From Antrihabitans auranticaus (GTDB taxonomy: Bacteria; Actinomycetota; Actinomycetes; Mycobacteriales; Mycobacteriaceae), in NCBI RefSeq assembly GCF_016481275.1, contig NZ_JAEMNW010000004.1, forward strand, positions 620,001 to 684,000: a stretch of 64,000 bases of DNA, read 5' to 3'. Of the stretch, positions 47,226 to 63,495 are shown piece after piece (position 1 is the stretch's first letter; the number at the start of each line of letters is the position of its first letter). Below the pieces are notes generated by a model that worked only from the letters and a program-made list of their open reading frames with translations, was not told where the DNA came from and did no database searches. The translations under genes and the position numbers were made by a program.

Positions 47226-47248
47226 GCGCCTCACGGTATCCGAAGAGT

Positions 47249-47271
47249 TAGTTGCCTGCGGCAGTCAACTA
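47249..47271. promoter_or_regulatory. MarR operator between the oxidase and MarR genes
   Basis: TAGTTG and CAACTA, 11 bases apart, with an inner TGCC/GGCA dyad. It lies 15 bases upstream of the MarR ATG and 24 from the oxidase start. Confidence 0.65.
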
Positions 47272-47285
47272 TCTATACTGAGAGG

Positions 47286-49059: not shown

Positions 49060-49074
49060 TGCTGCCCCTACAAT

Positions 49075-49090
49075 CCAGGTGACCTGATGT
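49075..49090. promoter_or_regulatory. GntR operator before its own gene
   Basis: CCAGGTGACCTGATGT contains the dyad CAGGT-G-ACCTG. A copy with one difference lies at 54327-54342 in the main catabolic promoter. It is 20 bases upstream of the GntR ATG. Confidence 0.78.
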
Positions 49091-49110
49091 GTTGGTGTCG
49101 AGGAGGCCAC

Positions 49111-49926
49111 ATGCCCCGCCGTGATCCGCCGGTTGCTCCGATGGCCGGCATGCGTTCACCGAAGGCAGGCGACGCCGTCATCGAGTCGCTGCGCCGCGAT
49201 ATCACCTCGGCGCGGCTGCCTTTGGGCTCGCGACTGCCCAACGAGCGCGAACTCGCCGCGCATTACGGAGTCAGCCAGCCGACGGTGCGCGAGGCAGTTC
49301 GCGCACTCGAGGCTATGGGCCTCGTCCAGGTGCGGCACGGTAGCGGAGTGTTCGTCCGAGGTGACAGCGACTACCTCGTCGCAACGGCGTTGCAGATTCT
49401 CATGCAGATGAAGGACGTCGGACTGGTCGACGCACTGGACGTGCGAGGCGCTCTCGGGTTGCAGTCCGCGCGCGCTGCGGCAAAGAATGCAACCGACGCC
49501 GACCTCGCTGCACTCGAAGACGCGTTCGCCGTGCTTGGCGATGCGGCGAAGCTGCGTGACTTCGACTCCCTGATCGCGGCGGTCACCGGGTTCCAAGTCG
49601 TGTTGTCGCGCGCGGGACACAACGAATTGACCGCGGCGATCGAGAACGTCCTCGTCTCGCTCATCATGCACATGCAGTTCAAGGTGTTGCAGCGCAGAGG
49701 CATTCGCTTCTGGCAGCAGCGCACCACCGAATTCCAGCCTGACCGGCGCAAGATTCTCGACGCAGTTCGCAGTCACGATTCCGCTGCTGCGGTGGCCGCA
49801 ATGTCCGACTACCTCGACCACCAGCGCCGCTACTTCACGGACGACCCGGAACTCGCGACACTGCGACTCTCCGATCCCGAAGCGGTACGGATCGCGGCCG
49901 ACGTCGAGTTTCGTCGCGACGCGTAA
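49111..49926 (+). CDS. GntR family regulator (FadR/FCD type)
   Basis: About 271 residues. N-terminal winged helix (LPNERELAAHYGVSQPTVREAVRAL, near 45-70) and C-terminal FCD ligand domain. ATG 49111 follows GAGGAGG. Its 3' end overlaps the converging E1-beta gene by 97 bases. Likely represses the degradation genes through the shared 16-base site and is released by an acid or CoA-ester intermediate, as in related FCD proteins. Confidence 0.9.
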   Translation: MPRRDPPVAPMAGMRSPKAGDAVIESLRRDITSARLPLGSRLPNERELAAHYGVSQPTVREAVRALEAMGLVQVRHGSGVFVRGDSDYLVATALQILMQMKDVGLVDALDVRGALGLQSARAAAKNATDADLAALEDAFAVLGDAAKLRDFDSLIAAVTGFQVVLSRAGHNELTAAIENVLVSLIMHMQFKVLQRRGIRFWQQRTTEFQPDRRKILDAVRSHDSAAAVAAMSDYLDHQRRYFTDDPELATLRLSDPEAVRIAADVEFRRDA

Positions 49927-50885
49927 AGGTCCGTGACTGCCGCGACGATGCTGTCGGCAGTGGGATACAGCGGCTTCTCCATCGCCGGGCTGAACGGTAC
50001 GTGCACGTCCGGTGCGGTCAGTCGGCGGACCGGTGCGCGTAGGTCGGCAAAGGCCTGTTCGCTGATCACCGCCGAAATCTCGCTTGCTGCACTGCATGTG
50101 CGGGGTGCAGGGTCGACGACGAGCAGACGACCGGTTTTGCGGACGGACGCGACAATCGTGTCGGTGTCCAACGGCGACAGCGTGCGAGGGTCGATGAGCT
50201 CGATCGAGATATCGCGCGCAGCAAGCAGATCGGCCGCCTTCTTGGCAAGCTGAACCGCGCCGGCAATAGCCACGACGGTCACGTCGGTGCCGGAACGGAC
50301 GATGTTGGCGACACCGAGTTCGAGCGTGTACGGCTCGTCCGGAACCTCCTCCTTGCGCGACCAGAGCGTGGCGTCCTCGAAAACCAGTACGGGGTCGTTG
50401 CATTCGACTGCGGCACGAAGCAAGCCCTTCGCCTCGTAGGCGCTGGACGGAACAACGATATTCAAACCCGGGACGTTCATGAACATGGCGTACGGGCGGT
50501 CCGAGTGATGCGCCGCCGACGCCGCGCCGTACCACATGCTGGCGCGAAACACGATGGGGATGCTCGCCTGACCGCCGAATATGTACCGGTTTTTCGCGGC
50601 TTGATTGACCAACTGGTCCATCGCGAGATACATGAACGTCGCGTAGCTGTAGTCGACGATGGGCCGGAGTCCGGTCATCGCCGCACCGATTGCGACCCCG
50701 GTGAAACCGGCCTCCGAAATCGGCATGTTCATGATTCGGTCCAGGCCGAACTCGGAGACGAATCCTGGTGCTGTTCCGTATAGATTCGCGCGCACGTCCT
50801 CGCCCATGAGGACGACGGTGTCGTCGGATCGCAGCGCATCACGTTGTGCCGCAGCGATAGCGGCCAGATAGTTGAGCCGGGTCAT
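49830..50885 (-). CDS. 2-oxoacid/acetoin dehydrogenase E1 beta subunit
   Basis: About 351 residues. Transketolase-type E1-beta with MGEDVRANLYGTAPGF, the MNMPISEAGFTGVAIGAA segment and FEDATLWSRKEEVP, closest to acetoin-dehydrogenase/branched-type E1-beta. The last 20 or so residues after DLYASRRN exceed the family and are encoded opposite the GntR 3' end, giving a 97-base antisense overlap. Its ATG overlaps the E1-alpha stop (ATGA). Last gene of the leftward unit; forms the alpha2beta2 E1 with the neighbouring subunit. Confidence 0.9.
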   Translation of the reverse strand: MTRLNYLAAIAAAQRDALRSDDTVVLMGEDVRANLYGTAPGFVSEFGLDRIMNMPISEAGFTGVAIGAAMTGLRPIVDYSYATFMYLAMDQLVNQAAKNRYIFGGQASIPIVFRASMWYGAASAAHHSDRPYAMFMNVPGLNIVVPSSAYEAKGLLRAAVECNDPVLVFEDATLWSRKEEVPDEPYTLELGVANIVRSGTDVTVVAIAGAVQLAKKAADLLAARDISIELIDPRTLSPLDTDTIVASVRKTGRLLVVDPAPRTCSAASEISAVISEQAFADLRAPVRRLTAPDVHVPFSPAMEKPLYPTADSIVAAVTDLYASRRNSTSAAIRTASGSESRSVASSGSSVK

Positions 50886-51886
50886 CGGGTCACTCCCACT
50901 TTCCGGTCGGTGTAGACGTCGTCGAATGCGGCACTCGCGTCGGGCATCGGGCTTTCGTGGGCGAACTGCAGACAGTCGTCGATATCGTTGTGCACACCTG
51001 CTTCGACGGCAGCGATGTCGTTGTCGGAACAGCCTCGCGCCCGAAGCCGCTGTGCCGCAATAGCAATCGGATCACGGTCACGCCACGCGGCAATTTCCTC
51101 CGCCTTCCGCGCCGCGCCCGCATACGCGTCACGGAAACGCAGTCCCTCCGAGTGGTCTCGGTAGCGATAGGTGAGGACTTCGATCAGCGACGGACCGTCG
51201 CCGGACCGTGCGCGGGTCACCGCCGCCGAAACCACGTCGTGCACTGCCTCTACGTCCTGACCGTCGTCGACCCGTATACCGGGCAGGCCGAAACCGGTTG
51301 CGCGGTCGGCGATCCGGGTATGTTTCGTGACCTCTGCCATCGGGGTCAGCGATGCGTACTGATTGTTCTCGCACAGGAAGATCATCGGCAGATCCCATGT
51401 GGCGGCCATGTTCATACTCTCGTAGAGCACGCCCTGGTTTGCGCCGCCGTCGCCGAAGAAAGTGAGGGCAACGCGACCGTTCTGCTTGATCTTCGACGAG
51501 AGCGCCGCGCCTGTCGCGACGGGTACGCCGCCGGCGATGATCGCGCTCTCACCGAGCGAACCGACACTGAAATCGGCGAGATGCATCGAGCCACCTTTGC
51601 CCCGGCACACGCCGGTCGCGCGGCCGAGGATTTCCGCCATGAGTCCGCGCAGCGACGCATTCTTGCCGATCGGGTGCCCATGGGATCGATGATTACCGGT
51701 GATGTAGTCCGAATCCTGCAGTGCCATGCAGCTTCCGACGATTTGCGCTTCCTGGCCGATACTGAGATGAATCGAACCCGGAAGTTCACCGCGGGCAGCC
51801 ATCTGCTGGACGGATTCCTCGAACATTCGAATACGCAACATGCGGCGATACATTTCGGTCAAGGCTTCGGTGGACGTCACGGTCAC
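50882..51886 (-). CDS. 2-oxoacid/acetoin dehydrogenase E1 alpha subunit
   Basis: About 334 residues. Thiamine-diphosphate site FFGDGGANQGVLYES with the downstream CENNQYA, the HRSHGHPIGKN segment and the phosphorylation-loop-like YRYRDHSEG. Resembles acetoin or pyruvate-type E1-alpha. With E1-beta it would decarboxylate or cleave a 2-oxo acid, acetoin or diketone and pass the acyl group to a lipoyl domain. ATG 51886 overlaps the cupin stop. The substrate is not predictable. Confidence 0.91.
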   Translation of the reverse strand: MTVTSTEALTEMYRRMLRIRMFEESVQQMAARGELPGSIHLSIGQEAQIVGSCMALQDSDYITGNHRSHGHPIGKNASLRGLMAEILGRATGVCRGKGGSMHLADFSVGSLGESAIIAGGVPVATGAALSSKIKQNGRVALTFFGDGGANQGVLYESMNMAATWDLPMIFLCENNQYASLTPMAEVTKHTRIADRATGFGLPGIRVDDGQDVEAVHDVVSAAVTRARSGDGPSLIEVLTYRYRDHSEGLRFRDAYAGAARKAEEIAAWRDRDPIAIAAQRLRARGCSDNDIAAVEAGVHNDIDDCLQFAHESPMPDASAAFDDVYTDRKVGVTR

Positions 51887-52320
51887 CCTTTCGAGTCGGA
51901 GTAGGGATCCACGTAACCGGCTTCGTTGCCGGCCGCGGGAATGAAGTCTGGGCGCGCGCTGTAGACCGCGATGAATCGCGAGCCCTCGGGACCGGACCGT
52001 AACGGCCCCCAGAACGCACCCGGATCCTCATGGTGGAAGAAGCCCGGTACGCAGACCTGCGGTTCGTCGTCGCCGACGAGCCACGACCCGTCGAGTAGGA
52101 AATGACTCACCGCACTGCTGTGCGAATGTCGCGGAACTCTGGTGTGGGGCGGGTGTTTGACGATGTAGAACCACGGCCCCCTTTCGTCTCCCGGCCTGCC
52201 TAGGTACTTGCCCAGATTCCCGATCGCGGCAGGTACGGTGCCGTCGAAGCCGTAGAGATCCGAGACCGGCACCCATTCGATTTCGTGTTCGTAGACGTCG
52301 AACGAGTCGGGCGCGCACAT
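51883..52320 (-). CDS. Cupin-domain protein
   Basis: About 145 residues. A single cupin with PRHSHSSAVSHFLLDGSW and VPGFFHHEDPG as metal motifs, similar in plan to small cupin dioxygenases such as 2,4'-dihydroxyacetophenone dioxygenase. Might cleave or isomerise a ketone intermediate. ATG 52320. Lies between the lipoyl-domain gene and E1-alpha, with overlapping ends, so it is part of the same pathway unit. Confidence 0.78.
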   Translation of the reverse strand: MCAPDSFDVYEHEIEWVPVSDLYGFDGTVPAAIGNLGKYLGRPGDERGPWFYIVKHPPHTRVPRHSHSSAVSHFLLDGSWLVGDDEPQVCVPGFFHHEDPGAFWGPLRSGPEGSRFIAVYSARPDFIPAAGNEAGYVDPYSDSKG

Positions 52321-52326
52321 GAGCGC

Positions 52327-52569
52327 TCAGCCTTCCGTTTCAATGACAGCCAGCACGTCACGGACTTCGATCACCGCGCCGACGGCGGCCAGCACTTCGA
52401 CAAGCACCCCTGACACCGGCGATTCCAGCGTCTCGTTCACCTTGGCGGTTTCTATTTCGACGAGGCCTTCGCCTTCGTCGATCGAGTCACCGACCTCCTT
52501 CAACCACTCGATCACTTCACCCTCGGTCATGCCCATTCCCCATTGCGGCAGACGCACTTCCACTCGCAT
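52327..52569 (-). CDS. Stand-alone lipoyl domain
   Basis: About 80 residues, one lipoyl/biotinyl fold only. Hairpin lysine in VEIETAKVNETLESP is the expected lipoylation site (about Lys43). It lacks the peripheral-subunit-binding and catalytic domains of a normal E2. A catalytic E2 domain without lipoyl domain is encoded at 60307-60900, so the pair probably replaces one E2 protein. ATG 52569. Three bases follow the FAH-gene stop. Confidence 0.88.
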   Translation of the reverse strand: MRVEVRLPQWGMGMTEGEVIEWLKEVGDSIDEGEGLVEIETAKVNETLESPVSGVLVEVLAAVGAVIEVRDVLAVIETEG

Positions 52570-52572
52570 GTG

Positions 52573-53421
52573 TCACTCCTTGTAATCGACGATGACGGTC
52601 CGCTGCGTGCCGAGACCGGAAATTCCGAGTTCGACGACGTCTCCGGCCCGCAGATAGGCCTGGTCGGCGCGGCCGAGGGCGACGCCCTCGGGCGTACCGG
52701 TATTGATCAGATCACCCGGCTCGAGAACCATGAATTGCGACAGGTACCGGACGATGGTGACCACGTCGAACACCATGTGCCTCGTGCAGGAGGCCTGCCG
52801 CTTCTCGCCGTTGACAGTCAGCCAGAGATCCGCTTTCTGCCAATCGATTTCGTCGCGACTCACGAAAACCGGACCGCACGGATTGAACGTCTCACACGAC
52901 TTCCCCTTGACCCACTGGCCTTGGCGTTCGAGTTGAAAGCTGCGTTCGCTGACGTCGTTCACGGCCACGAAGCCGGCGATCGCGGCAATCGCCGAAGCAT
53001 CATCGGCGAGATAACGCGACCGCGCCCCGATGACGACACCCAACTCCACCTCGTAATCGAGTTTGCTCGAGCCCGGCGGCGCGACGATGGGATCGTTCGG
53101 CCCGGACATGCAGTTCGGTGCCTTGGTGAAGATCACGGGTTCCGTCGGCACGGCGGCGGCGGACTCGTCGGCGTGTGCGACGTAATTCAGACCGACACAG
53201 ATGATTTGGTGCGGTCGTGCGATGGGCGCGCCGATCCGAACGTCGGCCAGCGGGTGCGCGACCCGTCCCTCGATCAGGTCGGGTAGCCGTGCGAGCCCGT
53301 CTGATGCGAAGAAGGCGGCGTCGTAGTCCGGCACTCGGTCCGAGACGTCGACGTAGTGGTCGTCGTCGACGAGTACGCCCGGCCGCTCTGCGCCGAGTTC
53401 CCCGATACGAACGAGTTTCAT
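52573..53421 (-). CDS. Fumarylacetoacetate hydrolase family protein
   Basis: About 282 residues. Metal-binding core KLDYEVELGVVIG with the following Glu and Asp, LNYVAHADES and GDLINTGTPEGVALGR identify the FAH superfamily. Members hydrolyse beta-diketones, decarboxylate oxaloacetate-like acids or hydrate dienes in aromatic breakdown. Cytoplasmic. ATG 53421 overlaps the BKACE stop. The longer frame to 53823 runs opposite to BKACE and is not used. Confidence 0.88.
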   Translation of the reverse strand: MKLVRIGELGAERPGVLVDDDHYVDVSDRVPDYDAAFFASDGLARLPDLIEGRVAHPLADVRIGAPIARPHQIICVGLNYVAHADESAAAVPTEPVIFTKAPNCMSGPNDPIVAPPGSSKLDYEVELGVVIGARSRYLADDASAIAAIAGFVAVNDVSERSFQLERQGQWVKGKSCETFNPCGPVFVSRDEIDWQKADLWLTVNGEKRQASCTRHMVFDVVTIVRYLSQFMVLEPGDLINTGTPEGVALGRADQAYLRAGDVVELGISGLGTQRTVIVDYKE

Positions 53422-54302
53422 TGGGCCGCTTGCCCGAAGACGATCTTGCGAGCGGTCTCGACGCTGGCGACCGGGCGTCCGATGGTCTCGGCCATGCGCA
53501 CGATGACCTCGACCAGTTGGGCATTGTGCTTGGACATGTCGCCGTTCGGCAGATATGGGTTGTCCTCCCACCCGACCCGGACGTGTCCACCCATGCCGAT
53601 AGCCATCGCCGCGAGCGGCCACTGCATGACGGGATCCATGATCGACACGTTCCAATTGACGTTCGGCGGAAGGTGATCGACGAGGTAGGTCATCGACTTG
53701 TGTGTCGGTGGGGTCCACGCGCCGCCGGGCCAGCCGAAGAAGAGCGTTGCCCACACCGGGTCCTGCAGTGTTCCGAGTTGCCTGATGAACTCGAGGTTCC
53801 AGAACGCGCCGGTGTAGAAGCACTCGATCTCGAGTTTCACACCGTGCTCGGCTGCCGCTCTACTGGCCGCCTCGAGTTCGTCACGCGGGTGCAGTGAGTA
53901 CATTTCGTTGGCGGGCAGCACAGGATCCGGCCGGAAGTACTCGTCGTGCACGTTGAAGGCGTAGGACATCATGTCCGGCTTCTGCTCCATCAACTTGATC
54001 TTTTCGGGCAGGCGCGCGCTCGCGATGCCGTACTGGATGATGGGGTCGGTGCCGACGGACTTGATCTTGTCTGTAAGTCGTTGCCACCCATCATGATCGA
54101 TGGTCGAGAGCTTCTTGCCGTCGGGCCCCATCTCCTTGTCCAGGTAATGCACGCCGTGGTGATGGCAGAGCGACGCGCCCGCGTTGACGGCGTCGACGTA
54201 CTGCTGGCCGACCGCCTCGGTGTCCTCGATCGGTGGCATGTGCGGAAAGCCCGGATACGACATGCTCGAATCGCAGGTGACGGTGATTATCAGATCGTCC
54301 AA
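53418..54302 (-). CDS. Beta-keto acid cleavage enzyme (BKACE family)
   Basis: About 295 residues, zinc TIM barrel. IITVTCDSSM at the start, the zinc motif LCHHHGVHYLD (HxH), LEIECFYTGAFWNL and GGHVRVGWEDNPYL match the family that includes 3-keto-5-aminohexanoate cleavage enzyme. Such enzymes condense a beta-keto acid with acetyl-CoA, giving acetoacetate and a new CoA ester. The start is read as TTG 54302, eight bases after GGAG. First gene of the leftward operon, just downstream of the GntR-type site. Confidence 0.9.
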   Translation of the reverse strand: MDDLIITVTCDSSMSYPGFPHMPPIEDTEAVGQQYVDAVNAGASLCHHHGVHYLDKEMGPDGKKLSTIDHDGWQRLTDKIKSVGTDPIIQYGIASARLPEKIKLMEQKPDMMSYAFNVHDEYFRPDPVLPANEMYSLHPRDELEAASRAAAEHGVKLEIECFYTGAFWNLEFIRQLGTLQDPVWATLFFGWPGGAWTPPTHKSMTYLVDHLPPNVNWNVSIMDPVMQWPLAAMAIGMGGHVRVGWEDNPYLPNGDMSKHNAQLVEVIVRMAETIGRPVASVETARKIVFGQAAQ

Positions 54303-54326
54303 GGGGACCACTCCTTCTAAAAGACA

Positions 54327-54342
54327 CCAGGTGACTTGATGT
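54327..54342. promoter_or_regulatory. GntR operator in the divergent catabolic promoter
   Basis: CCAGGTGACTTGATGT differs from the site at 49075-49090 in one of 16 bases. It lies between the two divergent units, so one bound GntR dimer could block both. Confidence 0.8.
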
Positions 54343-54367
54343 ATGTATAGCACTCGAGGGGGTACTC

Positions 54368-54396
54368 TTGACAGCAAAACTAGAGATTGTTTCTAT
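54368..54396 (+). promoter_or_regulatory. Sigma70-type promoter of the hydrolase/ligase unit
   Basis: TTGACA at 54368-54373 is followed, after 17 bases, by TTCTAT. It is downstream of the GntR site and 32 bases upstream of the GTG start. Confidence 0.6.
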
Positions 54397-54427
54397 TTTC
54401 AGGACACCCTCGACGCGGAGGTACTTC

Positions 54428-55702
54428 GTGAGCTCCATAGACATGGCCAGTCGGCACTTTCATCTGTTCACCGATCCCTGGCTCGACTTCAACGTGATCC
54501 GCTACCTGGGGTACGCCTCGCAGGGCGGTGCGACGGTCGGCGAGGTACTCGCGATCGTTGCCGAGATCGAGGACGGTGACGTCGAAAGCTGGCACCGTGC
54601 CTGGTCCAGCTTTGCCGACCGGTTGGTCACTAGCGCCGAAAAGCTTGCTGCGCAGCCGGAGTCGACGGTCGACGCCCGGCGGGCCTACCTGCGTGCCGCG
54701 AACTACTATCACGCGAGCGACCAGTTTCTCGGCGGCTTCGACGAACGACGGCCCGAGGTCTACCGCAAACTACGGGGCGCCTTCGGCAGGGTCTGCGAAC
54801 TCGCATCCCCGCCGGGGATCCCGCTCGAATTCGAGTGCGACGGCGTCCGAATGCCGATGTACTTCCTACCGGGCTCGGACTCACCGCAGGACTATCCGAC
54901 GGTCATCATGCTCGGTGGTGCGGACGTCGTCTGTGAAGAGAACTTCTTCTATGGTGGCGGGTCGCTCCTGGACCGTGGCTACAACGTCGCACTTGTCGAA
55001 CTGCCGGGGCAGGTCGGGTCGCTCGCGATGAACGAGGTCGCAAAATATCGGGCCGACGCCGAAGTGCCATTCGCTGCGATGCTCGACGCACTGATCGCGC
55101 TACCCGGCGTCGATCCGGACAACCTGTGGTGCGTGTGCTTTTCGGCTGGTGGGTACTTCGGGCCGCGCGCTGCGGCACACGACCACCGCGTACGCGGCTG
55201 GGTCTTCGATGCGTCGTTGCACGAGCTGGTCGAGTTGCCGCGATCGGTCGCAGGCGTGGGGGAGATGCTCGACAACGGCGCGAGTGATGCGGAGGTCGAC
55301 GCGCACATCGAGCGATTACGGCATCTGCCCGCGGTCGACTTCTCGTTCCACTGGTGGGGCAGGCGCGGCGGTCACTACGACGCACCCGTCGAGCGCTACA
55401 GCCAGATCGTCCATGATCTCGCCGAGTTCTCGGTGTCGAGCGAGATGATCGCCGCGATCCAGGGCTCGGTCCTGCTGGTCTGCGGCACGGCCGAACCCCC
55501 TGCGTGGCAACGGCTTACCCGCGAGCTCTTCGACGGATTGACCGTCGAAGACAAGCAGTTCGTCGAACTCGGACCGGAGACGGGTGCCGACGCACATACG
55601 TCGGTCTCCGCTTTGCCGGTGGTGGAAGCAATTATTCTGCCGTGGCTGTACCGGCACGCGGGACCGGGTGCGCGGCCGTTCTCCGGACCGGGAAGGCCCT
55701 GA
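54428..55702 (+). CDS. Alpha/beta hydrolase, DHPON-hydrolase/FrsA-like
   Basis: About 424 residues. A long N-terminal helical cap (to about residue 120) precedes the hydrolase core with GGADVVCEENFF, the nucleophile elbow CFSAGGYFGPR near residue 240 (Cys-x-Ser-x-Gly-Gly, with the first Gly replaced) and an Asp/His pair to the right. Similar in plan to 2,6-dihydroxypseudooxynicotine hydrolase, a carbon-carbon bond hydrolase of nicotine breakdown. GTG 54428 is chosen because GGAGG lies six bases upstream. First gene of the rightward unit. Confidence 0.83.
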   Translation: MSSIDMASRHFHLFTDPWLDFNVIRYLGYASQGGATVGEVLAIVAEIEDGDVESWHRAWSSFADRLVTSAEKLAAQPESTVDARRAYLRAANYYHASDQFLGGFDERRPEVYRKLRGAFGRVCELASPPGIPLEFECDGVRMPMYFLPGSDSPQDYPTVIMLGGADVVCEENFFYGGGSLLDRGYNVALVELPGQVGSLAMNEVAKYRADAEVPFAAMLDALIALPGVDPDNLWCVCFSAGGYFGPRAAAHDHRVRGWVFDASLHELVELPRSVAGVGEMLDNGASDAEVDAHIERLRHLPAVDFSFHWWGRRGGHYDAPVERYSQIVHDLAEFSVSSEMIAAIQGSVLLVCGTAEPPAWQRLTRELFDGLTVEDKQFVELGPETGADAHTSVSALPVVEAIILPWLYRHAGPGARPFSGPGRP

Positions 55703-55703
55703 C

Positions 55704-57212
55704 ATGCGGATGATCGACTACCTCGACCGAGGTGCCCTGCTTGCGCCCGAGCGAACCTGCCTGATCGACGGCAACGAGCGCATGACGTACTCGGAAGTCG
55801 TTGCGGCGTCGCACAACATCGCGGCAGGACTCCTCGAGGGCGGAATTGGGAGCGGCTCCCGCGCCGCGATCCTCGCGCCGAATTCCGCGGCCGCATTCAC
55901 CGCCGTGCTGGGAGTGCTGCGCAGCGGAGCGACATGGATTCCCGCCAATGTGCGGGCAACGCCGGTAGAACTGGCCGAGCAGCTCACAATTGGCGAATGT
56001 GCGGTGCTGTTCTACGATCCAGTGCTGCAAGACGTTGCCGAGCTGCTCGTGCAGGCGGTCCCTACCCTGACGTGGTCGATTCCCCTCGACGCGATGCCGA
56101 GCGGGACGGCAGAGATACCCGACGTGCTGGAAGATTCGCGGCGCGAGGCGATTCTCGGATTTACCGGTGGAACCACCGGGCGACCCAAGGCTCTCGTGGC
56201 AAGTTCGCGCAACGTGGAGGCGATGACGACCGCACTGCTTGCTCACGTCGACATCGGGTCGCCACCCGTGTATCTGGCTGCCGCGCCGCTGACGCATGCG
56301 GCGGGAATTCTGTGCTTTCCGGTATTGGCATGCGGAGGAACGATTCTCATTCACCGCACGGTCGATCCCGGCGCCATTCTCGACGCCGTGGAACGCGATG
56401 GCGTGACGTTCCTTTTCCTCCCACCGACCGCGATCTACATGTTGCTCGCGCACCCGACCGTCCGAGGTCGCGACTATTCGTCGCTGCGCGCCTTCGTCTA
56501 TGCCGCGGCACCGATGGCGCCCGAGAAACTCAGGCAGGCACTGGATGTGTTCGGCCCGAAAATGGTTCAGCTCTATGGACAGTCCGAGGCGGCCATGATC
56601 TGCACCGTCCTCACTGCCGCCGACCACGTCACCGCGCTGGCCGAAGCCCCACATCGTTTGGCCTCGTGCGGCCGGCCATCGATCGTGGCGCGGGTGGCCG
56701 TGATGGCTGAGGACGGAACGTTGCTGCCGCAGGGAGAAATCGGGGAGGTTGTCATCCGGAGTGCGCTGGTCATGGAGGGCTATCTCGGTGATCCGGATCC
56801 GTCCGTTCGCGCACACGGGTGGCACCACACCGGCGACGTCGGCCGCATCGACGAGGACGGCTACGTCTACCTCGTCGACCGCAAGAAGGACATGATCGTC
56901 ACCGGCGGCTTCAACGTCTTCTCGGCAGAAGTGGAGACAGCTGTCCTCGCGCATCCGGCGGTGGCGCAATGTGCCGTCGTCGGGACGCCCGACCCGCACT
57001 GGGGCGAGGTGGTGACGGCAGTCGTCGAACTGCTGCCGGATACAACACTGGATCCCGACGAATTGATCGCGCACTGCAAGGCGCTGGTGGGCGGCGTGAA
57101 GTCGCCGAAGCGCGTGGAGATATGGCCGAAATTGCCGCGGAGCAGCGTCGGAAAGATTCTGAAGCGTGAAGTGCGCGACTACTTCTGGCAGGGTGCGGAG
57201 CGGAGGGTCTGA
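55704..57212 (+). CDS. Acyl-CoA ligase (AMP-binding)
   Basis: About 502 residues. ANL superfamily: P-loop FTGGTTGRPKA near 153, LYGQSEA near 290, the hinge WHHTGDVGR, DRKKDMIVTGGFNVFSAEVE and the catalytic Lys of the C-terminal KILKREVRD. Activates a carboxylic acid as an acyl-CoA. ATG 55704 starts one base after the hydrolase stop. In the proposed pathway it would convert the acid released by the hydrolase. Ends before a very long hairpin. Confidence 0.9.
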   Translation: MRMIDYLDRGALLAPERTCLIDGNERMTYSEVVAASHNIAAGLLEGGIGSGSRAAILAPNSAAAFTAVLGVLRSGATWIPANVRATPVELAEQLTIGECAVLFYDPVLQDVAELLVQAVPTLTWSIPLDAMPSGTAEIPDVLEDSRREAILGFTGGTTGRPKALVASSRNVEAMTTALLAHVDIGSPPVYLAAAPLTHAAGILCFPVLACGGTILIHRTVDPGAILDAVERDGVTFLFLPPTAIYMLLAHPTVRGRDYSSLRAFVYAAAPMAPEKLRQALDVFGPKMVQLYGQSEAAMICTVLTAADHVTALAEAPHRLASCGRPSIVARVAVMAEDGTLLPQGEIGEVVIRSALVMEGYLGDPDPSVRAHGWHHTGDVGRIDEDGYVYLVDRKKDMIVTGGFNVFSAEVETAVLAHPAVAQCAVVGTPDPHWGEVVTAVVELLPDTTLDPDELIAHCKALVGGVKSPKRVEIWPKLPRSSVGKILKREVRDYFWQGAERRV

Positions 57213-57259
57213 CCGGATCGGCGGGACCCTCCGCCGCTCGCGGTGCCTGCCACCCCGCC

Positions 57260-57327
57260 CCCGCGCGAGTGTGCAGTTATTGTCGGAAATCATCCGATTT
57301 CCGCAATTAACTGCACACTCGCGCGGG
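57260..57327. repeat. Long perfect hairpin between converging genes
   Basis: 20-bp perfect arms at 57260-57279 and 57308-57327, the stem continuing (with a bulge on each side) through CGGAAATC/GATTTCCG to a four-base loop. Over 30 base pairs in total. It probably serves as a bidirectional terminator but is far longer than needed, and resembles a mobile palindromic repeat. Confidence 0.85.
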
Positions 57328-57361
57328 TGGCGGCGGGGCCGGGAAGGACTAGGCGGCTGCG

Positions 57362-58381
57362 TCAGCCCAAGATGACGTCGCGGAGGGCCCGCAGGGTCGG
57401 CTCGTCACGGACGCCGCCGATCAAGATGGTGGTGATGGGGGAGTCGCGCCAGAGTTGGATGCGTTCCTTGATCCGCTCGATCGGGCCGAGAAGGGATGTC
57501 GCGTCGGCTAATTCGTCGGGCACGGCTCGGACGGCCTCTTCTTTGCGTCCGGCGAGGAACAGCTCCTGAACCTTCTGTGCGGCGTCGGCGTAGCCCAGCC
57601 GGCCGATGAGGTCGAGATGGAAGTTGCGTTCCCGCGCGCCCATTCCGCCCATGTACAGCGCCAGTGGCAGTTTCGCGATCGTCAGGGCGCTGTCGAGATC
57701 GTCGGTGACCACGGTGGTGACGGGTGCGGCGATGTCGAAGTTCGCCGGTCGACCTGCCAACGACGGGCCGTAGATCTGGTCGACGAGGGTGGGGTCGAGG
57801 AAGAAGGGGATCCAGCCGTCGGCGATCTCTGCTGCGAGTGCGACGTTTTTCGGCCCCTCCGCGCCGAGGTACACCGGAATGTCGGCTCGGCGTGGGTGAA
57901 CGATCGACTTGAGGGGCTTTCCGAGGCCGGTCCCGCCCGGGTAGGGGATCGGGTGATGCGGACCGGTGCCGGTGACCGGATTCTCGCGTGCCCAGACCTG
58001 GCGCATGATGTCGATGTATTCGCGGGTCCGGGCAAGTGGCTTGCCGAACGGTTGTCCGTACCAGCCTTCGACGACCTGGGGACCCGATACGCCCACTCCG
58101 AGTATCAGGCGGCCACCCGACAGCCCGTCGAGGGTGAGCGCGTGCATCGCCGTGGCAGTCGGTGTGCGAGCAGACATTTGGGTGACGGCCGTACCGAGCT
58201 TGATCTTCGACGTACGCGCGCCGAACCACGCAAGCGGGGTCAGTGCGTCGGACCCGTACGCCTCGGCGGTGAAAACACTGTCGTAGCCGAGACTTTCGGC
58301 GGCCTGGACGGTATCGGTGAGGTCCTCGGGGTGCTTCTGCCAATAGCCAACCGTCATACCCAGTTTCAGGTCGTTCGTCAT
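57362..58381 (-). CDS. LLM-class (F420-type) oxidoreductase
   Basis: About 339 residues. Luciferase-like TIM barrel: LKLGMTVGYWQKHPEDL at the start, KLGTAVTQMSARTPTATAMH and GVGVSGPQVVEGWYGQPF. Flavin or F420 as cofactor; actinobacterial members of this type are mostly F420-dependent. Could reduce or oxidise an intermediate of the pathway. ATG 58381 overlaps the flavin-hydroxylase stop. Last gene of the TetR-controlled unit. Confidence 0.88.
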   Translation of the reverse strand: MTNDLKLGMTVGYWQKHPEDLTDTVQAAESLGYDSVFTAEAYGSDALTPLAWFGARTSKIKLGTAVTQMSARTPTATAMHALTLDGLSGGRLILGVGVSGPQVVEGWYGQPFGKPLARTREYIDIMRQVWARENPVTGTGPHHPIPYPGGTGLGKPLKSIVHPRRADIPVYLGAEGPKNVALAAEIADGWIPFFLDPTLVDQIYGPSLAGRPANFDIAAPVTTVVTDDLDSALTIAKLPLALYMGGMGARERNFHLDLIGRLGYADAAQKVQELFLAGRKEEAVRAVPDELADATSLLGPIERIKERIQLWRDSPITTILIGGVRDEPTLRALRDVILG

Positions 58382-59517
58382 CCAACTACCTCGTATCCTG
58401 CGGGCTTCGCAAAGCCTTCGATGAACATTTTGTTGGGGGTCAGGCGCATTGCGAGATCGCGGAGCCGTGACGAGACGGGACCGTTCATTGCAGCGAGTCG
58501 CCCGACCGCTTTCGCCTCGTCCAGCACCTCACCGACCCGTTCGACCCGCTCGGCCGAGTAGCGCCGCAGTCCCTCCTCAGGCGAGCGCGCGGCCGCCAGG
58601 CGTAGCGCGAGCACCGTTGCGTCCTCGACGGCTAGGCAGGCGCCCTGGGCGACGTGCGGCGCCATCGCGTGCGCCGCGTCGCCGAGCAAGGCGACGCGTC
58701 CGGTGGTCCACGACGGAAGTTTGGGAAGGGCGTACACGTCGTTGCGCACTATCGCGTCTTGCGGCGTCGACTCGATCAGTCGGCCCAGCGGCTCTGCCCA
58801 CTCACCGAACTCGGAGAGCAGGTCGCGCTTCATGTTTCCGAAACGGTCCGGCGCATTTGCCGGTTGGAAGCGAGCGCCGAACCAGTACACGAGTCCGCCA
58901 CCCATCGGGCTCCAGCCTGCGCGGCTACCGCGCCCGAACGCCACGAAGGATGTATCCGGAACGTCTGTCGTTGCAACCATCCCGCGCCACACCGCCTGAC
59001 CGTCGTAGTGCGGTTCGGTGCCGGGAAACAGGAGCGACCGGACGACGGAATGCACGCCGTCGGCCCCGATCAGCACGTCCGCGGTCGCTGACTCGCCGTC
59101 CGCGAAATGCGCTCGCACACCGTCGCCACTCTGGTCGACCCCGACAAGCTCCTTGCCCAGGTGCAACCGCTGTGTGCCGAAGCGGCTGAGCAACGTGTCC
59201 GACACGCGGTGGCGGTGCATGCACACCATCGGCATTCCGAAGCGATTGACCAACTGGTCCAACGACACTCGCATGAGTGTGCGCCCTGTGGAGGTACGGA
59301 ATTCGGAGTACTCGAATGTTCCCGCGTCCTCGAGAACCTGCTCGAGCATGTCGTAGCGCTGAAACAGCTTGAGCGCGTTCGCCCACATGGTCAAGGCTGC
59401 GCCTACCGGCTGCGGCTCCGGATATCGCTCGTACACGTCGACGTCGAAACCCGCCTCACGCAGCGTGATTCCGGCGAAGAGGCCCCCGATGCCGGCACCG
59501 ATCACGATGATCTTCAC
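58378..59517 (-). CDS. FAD-dependent aromatic hydroxylase
   Basis: About 379 residues. PHBH/salicylate-hydroxylase type: N-terminal IIVIGAGIGGLFAGITL, the GADGVHSVVR motif near residue 160, and VALLGDAAHAMAPHVAQGACLAVEDA near 290. Predicted NAD(P)H-dependent ring hydroxylation. GTG 59517 is used, with AGGA eight bases upstream. It lies 10 bases after the EthD gene. Confidence 0.9.
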   Translation of the reverse strand: MKIIVIGAGIGGLFAGITLREAGFDVDVYERYPEPQPVGAALTMWANALKLFQRYDMLEQVLEDAGTFEYSEFRTSTGRTLMRVSLDQLVNRFGMPMVCMHRHRVSDTLLSRFGTQRLHLGKELVGVDQSGDGVRAHFADGESATADVLIGADGVHSVVRSLLFPGTEPHYDGQAVWRGMVATTDVPDTSFVAFGRGSRAGWSPMGGGLVYWFGARFQPANAPDRFGNMKRDLLSEFGEWAEPLGRLIESTPQDAIVRNDVYALPKLPSWTTGRVALLGDAAHAMAPHVAQGACLAVEDATVLALRLAAARSPEEGLRRYSAERVERVGEVLDEAKAVGRLAAMNGPVSSRLRDLAMRLTPNKMFIEGFAKPAGYEVVG

Positions 59518-59527
59518 GGTGGCGGTC

Positions 59528-60310
59528 CTAGTACAGGATTCGTTCGACGGAGAACCAACTCGGCGACGTGGCGCGGTCGGCGAAGGTGTTCTGACTCTCG
59601 CGGATCGCTTTCGCCGCTTGCTTGCCCTCCGGTGTGTCGAGTGCACGGATCAGATCGTCACGGAGCCAGACGAATTCGTCGAGACCGTCGAAGGCGTCGG
59701 CCACCGTGCCACGAACGGTCTTCGATAGATGCTCGATCGTCGGGTCGTAGATATTGACGTTCTGTACGTACCGCGCGAGCCCGAGATCTGTCGCGAGCGA
59801 CGTGATGAGGCTTCCGTGTTCCCCACGGTAGGCGGCGTGGGCGCCGTCCCGGCCCACGTCGGTGCGGGCATACCAACCCGAGTAGAACTTCAGATACGGA
59901 CCTCCCGGTAGCGCGACGGTCCGGCCCGGGCCACGTTCGTACACAACGTGTTCGGTGGCAAACCACGATGGTGACCGAGTCAGGTCGGTCATGTGCTTCT
60001 CGTCGACGCCGAGCTTGCGCATAGCCTGCTGGGCAGGCGGCGATGTCAGGGTCGCGGGCGCCGTGTCTGCGTTGAGCCAGTGGACGCCGACCTGGTCGTA
60101 GCCGACCGGATCCTCGGCGCCGTCACCCCACAGTTCGTCGTGTAGGAGGTAGTCCTCGACCGTGTACGCGTGTTCCTTGTGCAGCAGGTCGAGGGCACGC
60201 CGTACGCGCAGTGACAGTGGGAGATGGTGTTCGTCCCAGTACCGATGCATCTCGAATCGGCTCACGTGTGGCATGGGGCGGCATGCCGTGAGGAACTTGA
60301 CCTGGTTCAT
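59528..60310 (-). CDS. EthD-domain protein
   Basis: About 260 residues, two ferredoxin-like dimeric alpha-beta domains in tandem. MHRYWDEHHLPLSL is the EthD motif; a second one (YRGEHGSLITSLATDL) starts near 170. EthD-type proteins support oxidative breakdown of ethers or ring compounds, often as isomerases or cyclases. ATG 60310 overlaps the E2 stop. Confidence 0.8.
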   Translation of the reverse strand: MNQVKFLTACRPMPHVSRFEMHRYWDEHHLPLSLRVRRALDLLHKEHAYTVEDYLLHDELWGDGAEDPVGYDQVGVHWLNADTAPATLTSPPAQQAMRKLGVDEKHMTDLTRSPSWFATEHVVYERGPGRTVALPGGPYLKFYSGWYARTDVGRDGAHAAYRGEHGSLITSLATDLGLARYVQNVNIYDPTIEHLSKTVRGTVADAFDGLDEFVWLRDDLIRALDTPEGKQAAKAIRESQNTFADRATSPSWFSVERILY

Positions 60311-60900
60311 TCGAGTTCTCCTTCGATAAAGCCGATGAGATCGTTGAGAAAGCGCGCCGCAGGAACGCCGTCGGTGACGCGGTGATCGACGGAGAGGCTG
60401 AGCCACATCCGGTTTCGCCGGCTCAGAGCACCGACTGCGAGAATGGCCGCCTGCGGCGGGATGACGAGAGCCTGAAATCGCGGTATGCCATGACCGCCGA
60501 GATTCGAGATCGTGAACGTCGACGAGTACAGCTCGGCCGGGCGCAGGGTGCCGCTACGCGCAGCCGTCACCAGTCGGCGCCGTTCGGAACGAATATCGTT
60601 GAGCGACAGAGTGTCTGCGCCCAAGATCGCGGGTGCGACGATGCCGTCGTCGAGTGCAATGGCGACGCCGACGTTGATCTTCGAGTGCTCGTCGATCCCG
60701 TCGCGAAACGACGCGTTGAGGCGTGGGTGCGCAGCGAGTGCCCGTGCGGCCGAGGCGATGACGACGTCTTCGACGCTCGAGTCCGGCCGAACGGGAACGC
60801 ACGCGCGCGCCTCGAGTGTGAATTGTGGGATCGCGGCACTAGCCGTCATCGTCGCCGCGACAGCCTTTCGCAAAGGCGACAGTGCTCCTGCGCGTGTCAT
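60307..60900 (-). CDS. 2-oxoacid dehydrogenase E2 catalytic (acyltransferase) domain only
   Basis: About 197 residues, against more than 350 for a whole E2. Contains the CAT-domain core: LNASFRDGIDEHSKINVGVA, TFTISNLGGHGIPRF and the catalytic DHRVTDGVPAARFL. No lipoyl or E1/E3-binding domain. Begins with MTRAGALSPLRKAVAATM, the normal start of the CAT domain, so it is not a truncated end. It would accept the acyl group from the lipoyl protein at 52327. ATG 60900 overlaps the flavin-hydroxylase stop. Confidence 0.87.
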   Translation of the reverse strand: MTRAGALSPLRKAVAATMTASAAIPQFTLEARACVPVRPDSSVEDVVIASAARALAAHPRLNASFRDGIDEHSKINVGVAIALDDGIVAPAILGADTLSLNDIRSERRRLVTAARSGTLRPAELYSSTFTISNLGGHGIPRFQALVIPPQAAILAVGALSRRNRMWLSLSVDHRVTDGVPAARFLNDLIGFIEGELE

Positions 60901-62066
60901 ATGGCGTCCAGCTCTGCTCGAAGTGATCGGGTATAGCCGGCTATCAGAAGTCGTTCGGGAATGCGACTGTGATCGAGCGCCGCGTCGCGAAGCCGTTGCA
61001 GTACTGGATTTTTGGTGTGGTAGATCCGGCCCAGGGTGCGGGCGAACAAGGCGGTCTGCGCAGTGCGGGCCTCGCGCTGTCGTTCGTAGGCGGCAAGTGC
61101 CCGACCGATGGCGCCGATGTCGTCGAGCGTCTGCCCCCGTAGATGCCGTGCGAGGTAGTAGCCGTCCTCGATCGCCATGCCCGCCCCGTACGCGGCGTAG
61201 GGCGACGTGGCATGCGCGGCGTCACCGAGCAGTGTCACCCGACCGCTCGACCACTTGCGGAGCCGCGGGCGGTCGACTATTTCGCGTCGCAGGATGTGCT
61301 CGGGGTCGGTGGCGCGCACGAGGTCGGCGAGTGGGCTGATCCAGCCGCTCAACTTGCGTTCGAGGTGGTCTTTGGCGTCGCCGGTGAACGCAACGCCCTG
61401 CTGCCACGGTTCGAGAACCCACCACTGCCAGGCCGGTTGGCCTTTGTGCAGAATCGGCGACCAACTGGCTTGCGAGTCGCGATCGTGGCAGATTCGCCCG
61501 AAGCTTCTGTCGGGCCCGTCGAGCTGGCAGTAACCCTGCCAACAGTGAAAGCCGTGGTAGGTGAGCGGGGCCTCGCCGTGCAGCGTTCGCCGCACGATCG
61601 AGTTGATGCCGTCGGCCCCGACGAGCAGGTCGACTTCGGCTGCCCCGCCGTCGTCGAAAAACAGTTCTACACCGGAAGAGTCGTGTTCGAAACCGACGCA
61701 CCGGCGATCTGCCTGCAGGATGCCGGGCGGGAGAGCTGCGTGGACACGTTCGTACAGGTCAGGCCGTAGCAACCCGAAAAACGTTGCACCGAAGTCCTTT
61801 TCCAGCTCAGGGATGGCGGGAAACTCGGCACGTGGGCGCCCGTCGAAGCGGCTGAACCCGAGTCGTGCGGGTGCGCCGAGATCGTCGATGTCGACGCCGA
61901 GGTTCCGCAGGACGAGTAGTGGTGGCGTGGTCAGGCTCAACCCCGAACCGGCAGCGGTGACCGCTGCCCGGCGCTCGTAGATCGAGACCTGGAAGCCCGC
62001 CCTGTGCAGAGCCAATCCGGCACTCATACCTCCGGGGCCGGCTCCGATGACGGCAACACGTTTCAT
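60897..62066 (-). CDS. FAD-dependent hydroxylase (first gene of TetR operon)
   Basis: About 389 residues. VAVIGAGPGGMSAGLALHRAG, VGADGINSIVRRTL and VTLLGDAAHATSPYAAYGAGMAIEDG are the three flavin motifs of the class A hydroxylases. Related in plan to 2,6-dihydroxypyridine and 6-hydroxynicotinate hydroxylases as well as to salicylate-type enzymes. ATG 62066 follows GAGGTGTC. An operator-like dyad precedes it. It differs clearly from the second hydroxylase at 58378, so two hydroxylation steps are likely. Confidence 0.9.
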   Translation of the reverse strand: MKRVAVIGAGPGGMSAGLALHRAGFQVSIYERRAAVTAAGSGLSLTTPPLLVLRNLGVDIDDLGAPARLGFSRFDGRPRAEFPAIPELEKDFGATFFGLLRPDLYERVHAALPPGILQADRRCVGFEHDSSGVELFFDDGGAAEVDLLVGADGINSIVRRTLHGEAPLTYHGFHCWQGYCQLDGPDRSFGRICHDRDSQASWSPILHKGQPAWQWWVLEPWQQGVAFTGDAKDHLERKLSGWISPLADLVRATDPEHILRREIVDRPRLRKWSSGRVTLLGDAAHATSPYAAYGAGMAIEDGYYLARHLRGQTLDDIGAIGRALAAYERQREARTAQTALFARTLGRIYHTKNPVLQRLRDAALDHSRIPERLLIAGYTRSLRAELDAI

Positions 62067-62076
62067 GACACCTCGT

Positions 62077-62101
62077 AAAATTAGAGGAACATTCTAAATT
62101 T
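62077..62101. promoter_or_regulatory. TetR operator before the hydroxylase operon
   Basis: TTAGA and TCTAA (arms 62081-62085 and 62093-62097) around seven bases, extended outward by AAA/TTT pairs. AT-rich and 11 bases upstream of the hydroxylase ATG. Confidence 0.62.
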
Positions 62102-62143
62102 GTTCTGTCAGCAGCCTAAGACGTGGTGGTCGCGCCGTCAATG

Positions 62144-62188
62144 CCCGTGCGCGGTTAAGGAGTGCCTGGCTCGCTAACCGCGCACGGG
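62144..62188. repeat. Palindromic repeat/terminator, copy B
   Basis: CCCGTGCGCGGTTA pairs perfectly with TAACCGCGCACGGG (14 bp) around a 17-base loop. It overlaps the TetR stop codon and so may end its transcript. Its reverse complement resembles copy A at 49011-49059. Confidence 0.75.
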
Positions 62189-62842
62189 GGTCAGCTGAAG
62201 CAAGTTCGACGCCAGCGCGACCAATTCGTCGGCCAGGTCGTCATCGCTCACGTCGGTAAGCCCCAGTGGGCCGAAAAGCATTCTCTGGTCGAGCAATCCG
62301 ACCATAAGGCTGAAGCCGAGATCGATTGCCCGCTCCGGATCCGCGGCAGCAATTCGTTCTCGGTGCGGCTCGAGCAAACCCGCGTACCGATCGGCAACAA
62401 GATGAAAGATCTGCTGGCGGTGCTCCCGGAACTCCTCGTCGACGCAGGCGTGCGCAGCGGTCGCGCGATAGACCGGGCCCATGTCGCGGTAGGTCGCCAT
62501 CATCGCGTGCACCATCGCGTCGACGATCTGCTCGGCCGTCGCCGTTGCGAACCGCTCGGGCTTCGTCACGTCCTGAAGGACGCCTCGCGCGCGCTCCTCC
62601 GTCCGCTCGCGGAGCAAGCGGAGCACTGCGTACTTGTCGTCGAAGCGGGCGTAGAAGGAACCGACAGTACGGCCCGACCGCTCGATGATTTCCATGACGC
62701 CGATTTCGTGGAACAGCTTGTCGTGCAGCAGTTCCTCGGTGGCATCCAGAAAGCGATCGACCGTTTCCTGGCTGCGGGCCTGACGCGCGCGACGAACGGG
62801 TTCGGCCTTGTGTGCGGGTTTGGCCGCGGCCTTGCTCACCAT
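62174..62842 (-). CDS. TetR family regulator of the hydroxylase operon
   Basis: About 222 residues. A basic N-terminus rich in Lys/Ala precedes the HTH (DKLFHEIGVMEIIERSGRTVGSFYARFDDKYAVL). ATG 62842 follows GAGGGGAACGTG. It lies upstream of the hydroxylase operon in the same direction, separated by a hairpin and an operator-like dyad, so it probably represses that operon. Ligand likely the substrate or an early product. Confidence 0.87.
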   Translation of the reverse strand: MVSKAAAKPAHKAEPVRRARQARSQETVDRFLDATEELLHDKLFHEIGVMEIIERSGRTVGSFYARFDDKYAVLRLLRERTEERARGVLQDVTKPERFATATAEQIVDAMVHAMMATYRDMGPVYRATAAHACVDEEFREHRQQIFHLVADRYAGLLEPHRERIAAADPERAIDLGFSLMVGLLDQRMLFGPLGLTDVSDDDLADELVALASNLLQLTPVRG

Positions 62843-62937
62843 CACGTTCCCCTCGGCTGCTCGACGACGTATCCGGACGCTTGAGCTCCAGTATGACCGG
62901 GCGTCCATGTGATGTCCGCCTGCCGGGCCGGGTTTCG

Positions 62938-63471
62938 CTACGGCAGGTCCACGTTGCTTGCGAGCCAGCGCCCGTCCACACGCTCCATGGTCATCGATAC
63001 GCGGCTACGGTCGATTCGTGGATCGGGGTTCGCGGTGTTCGTCACGGACTGGTCGATGAACAGCAGAACTTCGACCCGGTCCCTCGTCGCCGACTTGACC
63101 GCTGCGTCGACGACGGTGCCGTGGCCGGCCGCCTGGTTGTCGAGCAGGAGTTGCCGAAGCTGGGTGCTCGATTGGCTGTACATGTCCTTGAACTCGCCTG
63201 TTGCGCCGTCGAGAACGGCGGTGAAATTCTGCTCCAAGGCGCCGGTGTCGATGCTCGTCAGTGTGACCGCGTAGGTACGGGCCGTGTCCAGGGCTTCCCG
63301 CGCTGCTTCATCGATCTGACTGCGCTGGTGCAACTTCCAGCCGAGAGTCGCAGAGAGCGCGATCAGCGCCCCGATCAGAACGACCACAGCTACGGTTGCA
63401 AGGGGCTTGCGGGAGAACCGTCTGGCCTTCGTGACGGGGGCCTTGTCGATGGGCCTATCGATGACCGTCAT
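62938..63471 (-). CDS. Mce-associated membrane protein
   Basis: About 177 residues. One N-terminal transmembrane helix (PLATVAVVVLIGALIALSATLGW) and an extracytoplasmic domain of the VirB8-like Mce-associated type (LLDNQAAGHGTVVDAAV, RVEVLLFIDQSVTN). It would support the Mce lipid-transport complex. ATG 63471 follows GGAG; the longer frame starts inside the ribosome site. It lies 24 bases after the Mce gene stop. Confidence 0.87.
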   Translation of the reverse strand: MTVIDRPIDKAPVTKARRFSRKPLATVAVVVLIGALIALSATLGWKLHQRSQIDEAAREALDTARTYAVTLTSIDTGALEQNFTAVLDGATGEFKDMYSQSSTQLRQLLLDNQAAGHGTVVDAAVKSATRDRVEVLLFIDQSVTNTANPDPRIDRSRVSMTMERVDGRWLASNVDLP

Positions 63472-63495
63472 TGCTTTCTCCTTTGCCGACATGTG

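Follow-up and report, generated by a model that had tools for sequence, protein, structure and literature searches.

An operator-marked, putatively catabolic locus beside a Mce operon in Antrihabitans auranticaus and three other mycobacterial species

Introduction

The mce4 genes belong to the KstR regulon. To our knowledge, the cargo of Mce transporters is open beyond a few studied systems. In the KstR and KstR2 regulons, as outlined in published accounts, genes for hydrophobic substrates are controlled by repressors whose palindromic operators overlap promoters (PMC1995591, PMC3068626), and the sequence described as bound by KstR is TAGAAC-N2-GTTCTA (PMC1995591). Here, we analyze a 64,000-nucleotide stretch of the Antrihabitans auranticaus genome (the window; C19:620001-684000 of 6.51 Mb), in which a block of 15 genes and an adjoining Mce operon carry common operators. 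The block is analogous to the KstR and KstR2 regulons in its layout, but it has different operators, regulators, and enzymes, and there is no KstR site at the locus.

With respect to enzymes, the A-ring-cleaving flavonoid and isoflavone clusters, fde of Herbaspirillum and ifc of Variovorax, are described as bringing together a FAD hydroxylase, an alpha/beta hydrolase resembling 2,6-dihydroxypseudooxynicotine (DHPON) hydrolase, and cupins, as our block does; the account of the isoflavone cluster (ifc) lists cupins, an FMO, and a hydrolase resembling DHPON hydrolase (25% to that of Arthrobacter) (PMC11069340). Likened in this way by description, the block differs in lacking a VOC ring-cleavage enzyme and in adding E1, lipoyl, and E2 proteins, a BKACE protein, an LLM oxidoreductase, and Mce. 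Compared to acetoin and 2-oxoacid dehydrogenase complexes, the block keeps the catalytic motifs of E1-alpha, E1-beta, lipoyl protein, and E2, but its lipoyl protein and E2 are split over transcription units and it contains no E3; a Shinella locus is split alike. Finally, DHPON hydrolase (PDB 2jbw), AntI, and Wdyg1p are all fold matches of the block hydrolase, and 2jbw and Wdyg1p also match it by sequence.

Results

The block spans 49.07 to 62.91 kb of the window and was delineated from the list of open reading frames (ORFs) and Pfam/NCBIfam searches. Its gene order is gntR (+); E1-beta, E1-alpha, cupin, lipoyl, FAH, BKACE (-); hydrolase, ligase (+); and LLM, FAD1, EthD, E2, FAD2, tetR (-) (Table 1). 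Scanning a genome collection of 84,980 species with a hydrolase pattern, which detects close relatives only, returned three loci, all mycobacterial: M. manitobense (L001), M. deserti (L002), and M. longobardus (L003). All 15 genes were matched in each of these species, with main-match protein identities of 64-89% (lowest for FAH). Gene order was kept in M. manitobense and M. deserti, while M. longobardus was rearranged, its BKACE-to-E1 operon, with gntR at the far end, lying on the other side of tetR.

Beyond these loci, relatives of the hydrolase were rare. At E <= 1e-40, it was matched in 6 of 401 genomes in a family sample, two of them orthologues (its own and one at 83%, which its identical coordinates indicate to be that of M. 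longobardus) and four at 30-33% identity, and in 8 of 396 genomes in a phylum sample (4.7e-286 for its own genome, 8.7e-51 to 3.2e-41 for the seven others). The other three of the four genomes in its own genus had no hydrolase match at E <= 1e-60, and FAD2, scored against the four best candidates of each genome, was unmatched at E <= 1e-70 in the 395 remaining genomes of the phylum sample. The surroundings of the block also differ, with a P450 and a steroid 3-ketoacyl-CoA thiolase nearby in M. deserti (L002:24-2552) and an AtuA protein in M. manitobense. From these differing surroundings, we infer that the block moves as a unit. The M. deserti flank also holds KstR-like sequences (L002:1284 and 1363), and in M. 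manitobense, the AtuA acyclic-terpene-utilisation protein is accompanied by a biotin carboxylase-type protein (L001:68-3144).

A Mce operon encoding YrbE permeases and Mce proteins adjoins the block in all four genomes; in A. auranticaus, its tail lies inside the window (62938) and the operon continues past the window end. The A. auranticaus and M. longobardus operons are 46-64% alike. The M. manitobense and M. deserti operons are 28-41% alike to that of A. auranticaus, while their YrbEA proteins are 91% alike. Two different Mce groups thus adjoin the block in different genomes, and the cargo is therefore probably hydrophobic. Because the importer differs while the control sites stay, this arrangement suggests that the Mce importer carries the substrate of the pathway, presumably inward.

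These control sites consist of two motifs found in intergenic DNA, both of which are found in each of the four genomes. Within the window, motif 2 reads TAGAG-N5-TTCTA; in A. auranticaus, it is located at the promoters of the hydrolase-ligase, FAD2-to-LLM, and Mce operons. The pattern YTAGAGNNNNNTTCTAW, composed with all three sites already in view, matched three times genome-wide, each time at one of these promoters, and its reversed form matched nowhere. The fair test is a leave-one-genome-out scan, in which a matrix trained on the other three genomes ranked the same promoters 1-3 (42.0, 30.1, and 29.4 bits), with the next site at 8.0; the best reversed-sequence control reached 7.6 with the full matrix. 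Leaving sites beyond the window out of the matrix gave 27.1 bits before the Mce operon. In the leave-one-genome-out scan, the top three regions were hydrolase, FAD2, and tetR/Mce in M. manitobense and M. deserti, and hydrolase and FAD2 were the top two in M. longobardus.

In each of the four genomes, motif 1 (approximately CACCWRRTGACYTGRTGT) marks the promoters of gntR, BKACE, and the hydrolase; M. manitobense and M. deserti carry it in their tetR/Mce regions as well. In A. auranticaus, there were two exact matches (before gntR and in the divergent BKACE/hydrolase promoter) and one match with a single mismatch elsewhere, and the leave-one-genome-out scan recovered the two expected sites at 30.9 and 18.2 bits. 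Neither motif pattern had any match in 100 shuffles of the window, indicating that the operator copies did not arise by chance. Gene content, conservation, and operator placement are direct observations, and the operator architecture is well supported. Based on position, motif 2 is probably the site of one regulator, putatively TetR, and motif 1 that of the other, putatively GntR.

A preliminary description had read positions 49075-62842 as a catabolic locus of three transcription units whose genes should co-occur in other genomes. This is supported, as the set has been kept together in three other mycobacterial species. Its "two divergent GntR units" are correct if they mean the divergent BKACE and hydrolase units under a common GntR-type operator, but there is a single GntR gene, with no second one among the block's ORFs and family hits. 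Likewise, its start falls on the first copy of motif 1, but its end precedes both the start of tetR and the co-regulated Mce operon. The importer and the operator logic were absent from that description, and the co-regulated locus should be extended to the Mce operon, up to C19:692059.

Neither Pfam nor NCBIfam gave a match for the alpha/beta hydrolase at E <= 0.001. In the PDB, it matched 3fnb (8.7e-22), 2jbw (1.4e-14), and 8qd7 (6.1e-4) by sequence, with its serine motif aligning with those of 2jbw and Wdyg1p. The top Foldseek matches of its structural model were 3fnb, 2jbw, AntI, Wdyg1p, and FrsA, and the top fold matches listed were 13-22% identical to it; AntI and Wdyg1p bear PDB titles that call them polyketide-shortening. 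By these matches, the hydrolase belongs with the retro-Claisen C-C hydrolases, among them DHPON hydrolase, AntI, and Wdyg1p, and C-C cleavage is its predicted activity. The plasmid neighborhoods of its relatives (25-30% identity; 7 of 61 matching records) were considered as a route to the substrate and set aside, being varied and without a common pathway. One Variovorax plasmid locus among them carries FAH and VOC genes.

The PDB entry closest to FAD1 was 3rp6, a "flavoprotein monooxygenase" (1.8e-55), with 6-hydroxynicotinate 3-monooxygenase (1.8e-43) and 2,6-dihydroxypyridine hydroxylase (1.5e-25) further away; its best NCBIfam model, HpxO, scored under the cut-off. FAD2 was closest to tropone 2-monooxygenase (6.4e-35), with 6-hydroxynicotinate 3-monooxygenase close behind (7.7e-33). 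The best plasmid relatives of FAD2, at 43%, are found in Deinococcus and Croceicoccus, in or beside C-glycoside-type loci. Their gene runs hold a TIM-barrel or sugar-phosphate isomerase protein and DUF6379, which we take to be a C-glycoside deglycosidase subunit; PF19906 is named CGDB. A sorghum-root Burkholderia anthina plasmid carries a further relative at 37%, with hydrolase, EthD, VOC, cupin, and FAH annotations among the nearby genes. Only the FAD, hydrolase, and FAH parts of these plasmid loci match the block by sequence. By analogy, the FAD2 relatives and the Variovorax isoflavone cluster point to plant- or polyketide-type phenolics. On the Deinococcus aetherius plasmid (L018:6844-18100), an isomerase, DUF6379, and a GMC oxidoreductase are joined to two FAD hydroxylases, a hydrolase, FAH, a cyclase, and VOC, a run that is possibly a complete C-glycoside polyphenol pathway. 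The LLM protein of our block matched TIGR03559 (F420_Rv3520c) at 441 bits (cut-off 335).

The E1-alpha and E1-beta families are both present, and GDG...NN, presumably the E1 cofactor motif, is kept in the three E1-alpha rows. The ETAKV and DHRxxDG motifs, which we take to mark the lipoyl lysine and E2, are kept in four genomes each. The lipoyl protein and E2 are separate proteins encoded in different transcription units, and E2 consists of the catalytic domain alone (197 aa), without fused lipoyl and subunit-binding domains. No E3 was present among the families of the block, to which the search was confined. Because the lipoyl protein scored best, though under the cut-off, with the NCBIfam acetoin-dehydrogenase E2 model, an acyloin substrate is as plausible as a 2-oxo acid. 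The E1/lipoyl trio recurs at 57-60% in polyol-type loci of Rubrobacter and Shinella, in Shinella together with a short E2 (38%). By sequence comparison, E1, lipoyl protein, and in some cases a short E2 thus form a reused, putative split dehydrogenase module. In those loci (L029:2721-5042 and L030:9980-15614), the trio, with the short E2 in Shinella, sits among glpD, aldolase, kinase, and sugar-transport genes. In addition, M. longobardus has a second E1-alpha/E1-beta/ligase set (30-36% alike) ~5 kb from gntR (L052:938-11786), together with acyl-CoA dehydrogenases, a thiolase, an aldehyde dehydrogenase, and an RPE65-type oxygenase.

The BKACE protein scored 164.3 bits against its Pfam family (cut-off 24.8) and is an outlier within it, reaching at most 120.8 bits against every NCBIfam subtype (cut-offs 350-725) and so fitting no characterized subtype. 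Its best plasmid relative, in Sinorhizobium americanum (44% alike), is located beside FAH and cyclase genes. The structural model of the cupin was unusable (pLDDT 36), and the BKACE and cupin neighborhoods, also considered as a guide to the substrate, gave no clear lead.

Discussion

We lean toward reading the locus as a regulon whose products take up a hydrophobic, 1,3-dioxygenated compound of phenolic or polyketide type and break it down aerobically; every reaction in this scheme is predicted, and the class of chemistry is moderately supported. The Mce ABC importer would bring the compound in, and FAD2 and FAD1 would hydroxylate its electron-rich ring, with the F420-type LLM protein, perhaps together with EthD, reducing or reshaping the product. 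The alpha/beta hydrolase could then cut a C-C bond of a 1,3-diketone-like intermediate by retro-Claisen cleavage, and the neighboring ligase could turn the freed acid into a CoA ester. The remaining fragment may be cut by the cupin, conceivably a diketone-cleaving dioxygenase, and/or by FAH; E1 would act with the free lipoyl protein and short E2 to convert a 2-oxo acid or acyloin to acyl-CoA, and BKACE would exchange a beta-keto acid with acetyl-CoA. Control would probably be exerted by TetR through motif 2 at the hydrolase-ligase, FAD2-to-LLM, and Mce promoters and by GntR through motif 1 at its own and the BKACE/hydrolase promoters. All families named in the preliminary description are present in the block (by Pfam/NCBIfam and, for the hydrolase, by PDB sequence matches), and the hydroxylation, C-C hydrolysis, CoA activation, and acyl transfer it envisaged are reasonable candidate steps.

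Several observations weigh against this reading. The Mce promoter of A. auranticaus carries motif 2 without motif 1, in M. longobardus the operators are separated from Mce by a P450-type ORF, the gntR copy of motif 1 is weak (18.2 bits compared to 14.8 for the best reversed-sequence control), and the matrix scan found no motif in front of the A. auranticaus tetR. The M. deserti match to E1-alpha is broken into two pieces (87 and 60%) that overlap but lie in different frames, which points to a sequence error or a frameshift. Confidence in the hydrolase model is medium (pLDDT 56.7), with TM scores of 0.40-0.51 and a root-mean-square deviation of ~14 Å to the named relatives. Likeness to the Deinococcus set is 43% for FAD2, 31% for FAD1, and 24% for the hydrolase, and EthD had no match in the plasmid collection. 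The search for a C-glycoside deglycosidase beta subunit found none in the A. auranticaus genome, and the same search was without a match in control genomes too. Pfam/NCBIfam likewise found no VOC dioxygenase in the block; one VOC-type gene lies beyond the A. auranticaus Mce operon, with no counterpart in the relatives' fetched flanks.

The locus could instead be an offshoot of the KstR cholesterol system serving steroid or terpenoid degradation, which would account for the Mce operon, the Rv3520c-type oxidoreductase, and the TAGA-type palindromes. The outer halves of the published KstR palindrome do resemble motif 2 (PMC1995591), Rv3520c appears in a table of cholesterol-related genes (PMC6429209), and the block neighbors a steroid 3-ketoacyl-CoA thiolase in M. 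deserti and AtuA in M. manitobense. Yet these flanks differ between genomes, and motif 2 has a 15-bp core without AAC-N2-GTT. Moreover, the KstR palindrome occurs at 25 places in the genome (12 exact and 13 with one mismatch; 6 for the reversed control) and at none in the locus, while the block's TetR matches EthR-type proteins weakly and has no KstR entry in its match list. Two group-A-type hydroxylases and a retro-Claisen-type hydrolase would also suit phenolics better than steroids, and we consider such an offshoot rather unlikely.

Catabolism of nicotine, hydroxypyridine, or nicotinate, which the preliminary description saw mirrored in the hydrolase and hydroxylases, loses ground on the same enzymes. 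DHPON hydrolase is a relative of our hydrolase in sequence and fold, but the same family holds polyketide-shortening enzymes, and 6-hydroxynicotinate 3-monooxygenase, although the next-named PDB relative of FAD1 and FAD2, is closest to neither, both being nearer to other families. With no pyridine-specific dehydrogenase among the block's Pfam/NCBIfam families, and a polar substrate that would hardly need a Mce importer, a nicotine or hydroxypyridine substrate appears quite unlikely. We likewise give little credence to the idea that the block detoxifies a phenolic or polyketide antibiotic and does not support growth on it: a CoA ligase, E1/E2, BKACE, and an importer would suit carbon recovery better, even though tetracycline destructases and rifampin monooxygenases are among the PDB matches of FAD1 and the block has a rare, scattered distribution.

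Our preferred reading remains a breakdown pathway for a hydrophobic compound of phenolic or polyketide type. We hold more tentatively, at somewhat less than even confidence, that this is a non-sterol Mce-coupled regulon in which an exchangeable Mce importer and common operators serve to degrade a polyphenol or polyketide of hydrophobic character with no classical extradiol dioxygenase involved; the route would combine flavin hydroxylation with F420 chemistry, retro-Claisen hydrolysis, and an acyloin/2-oxoacid dehydrogenase that is split. The preliminary description found the combination of genes unfamiliar, and no publication describing this set was found in the open-access literature (titles and abstract beginnings), but E1 with the free lipoyl part recurs as a module in other loci. 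Here, a Mce operon is tied to a defined enzyme set by operators without other genome matches under the pattern used, and the other Mce group elsewhere stands beside the same enzymes. Owing to this tie, the cargo could be found by enzyme-guided induction or growth screens. The locus may also represent a new way in which soil actinobacteria break down polyphenols or polyketides aerobically.

Locus coordinates and neighboring genes

Several listed ORFs start too far upstream, and the starts given in Table 1 follow orthologue alignments and ribosome-binding sites.

Table 1. Genes and operator copies of the locus, in window positions unless a contig is given. Bits are from matrices trained without the A. 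auranticaus genome.
Feature	Position	Strand	Evidence or remark
Operator motif 1, copy before gntR	49071..49092	+	18.2 bits
GntR/FCD regulator	49087..49926	+	Pfam GntR and FCD; orthologues 71-75%; true start may be slightly downstream
E1-beta	49830..50885	-	Transketolase pyr/C; orthologues 79-81%
E1-alpha, thiamine-diphosphate subunit	50882..51886	-	E1_dh
Small cupin	51883..52320	-	Cupin_7, weak (27.8 bits, cut-off 27)
Free lipoyl-domain protein, 80 aa	52327..52569	-	Biotin_lipoyl
FAH-type hydrolase	52573..53430	-	FAA_hydrolase; start inferred from orthologues
BKACE-family protein	53418..54302	-	BKACE; inferred TTG start
Operator motif 1, BKACE/hydrolase divergent promoter	54323..54344	+	30.9 bits
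Operator motif 2, inside TTGACA-17-TTCTAT promoter of hydrolase	54377..54399	+	42.0 bits
Alpha/beta hydrolase, DHPON-hydrolase/AntI/Wdyg1p kind	54422..55702	+	Sequence and fold matches; inferred GTG start
Acyl-CoA ligase	55704..57212	+	AMP-binding; inferred start
LLM oxidoreductase, F420, Rv3520c type	57362..58381	-	Bac_luciferase; TIGR03559
FAD hydroxylase FAD1	58378..59520	-	FAD_binding_3; inferred start
EthD-domain protein	59528..60310	-	EthD; orthologues 72-79%; inferred start
E2 catalytic domain without lipoyl domain	60307..60900	-	2-oxoacid_dh catalytic domain
FAD hydroxylase FAD2	60897..62066	-	FAD_binding_3
Operator motif 2, before FAD2	62078..62100	+	30.1 bits
TetR regulator	62174..62908	-	TetR; conserved part begins near 62845
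Mce-associated protein, Mce operon tail	62938..63492	-	No Pfam or NCBIfam match; 55% relative directly after M. longobardus Mce operon
Last Mce gene, truncated by window end	63496..64000	-	Operon continues to C19:692038
Operator motif 2, before Mce operon	C19:692037-692059		8 kb beyond window end

On the gntR side, a CrtO/CrtI-like FAD protein, a MarR regulator, and an MFS transporter adjoin the block at window positions 45690-49026. The MarR-MFS pair (47187-49026) was considered as the pathway transporter and set aside, as the DNA resembles that of the relatives only from within gntR onward. At the other end, beyond the window, a meta-cleavage set lies next to the A. auranticaus Mce operon (L041:10114-18390; C19:693113-701389). 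It was rejected as part of the locus, having no match above 80 bits in the relatives' fetched loci and flanks. Its genes encode an amidohydrolase, a 4-hydroxy-2-oxovalerate aldolase, an acetaldehyde dehydrogenase, a hydratase, a MhpA-like hydroxylase, a HsaD/BphD-like hydrolase, and an extradiol dioxygenase.

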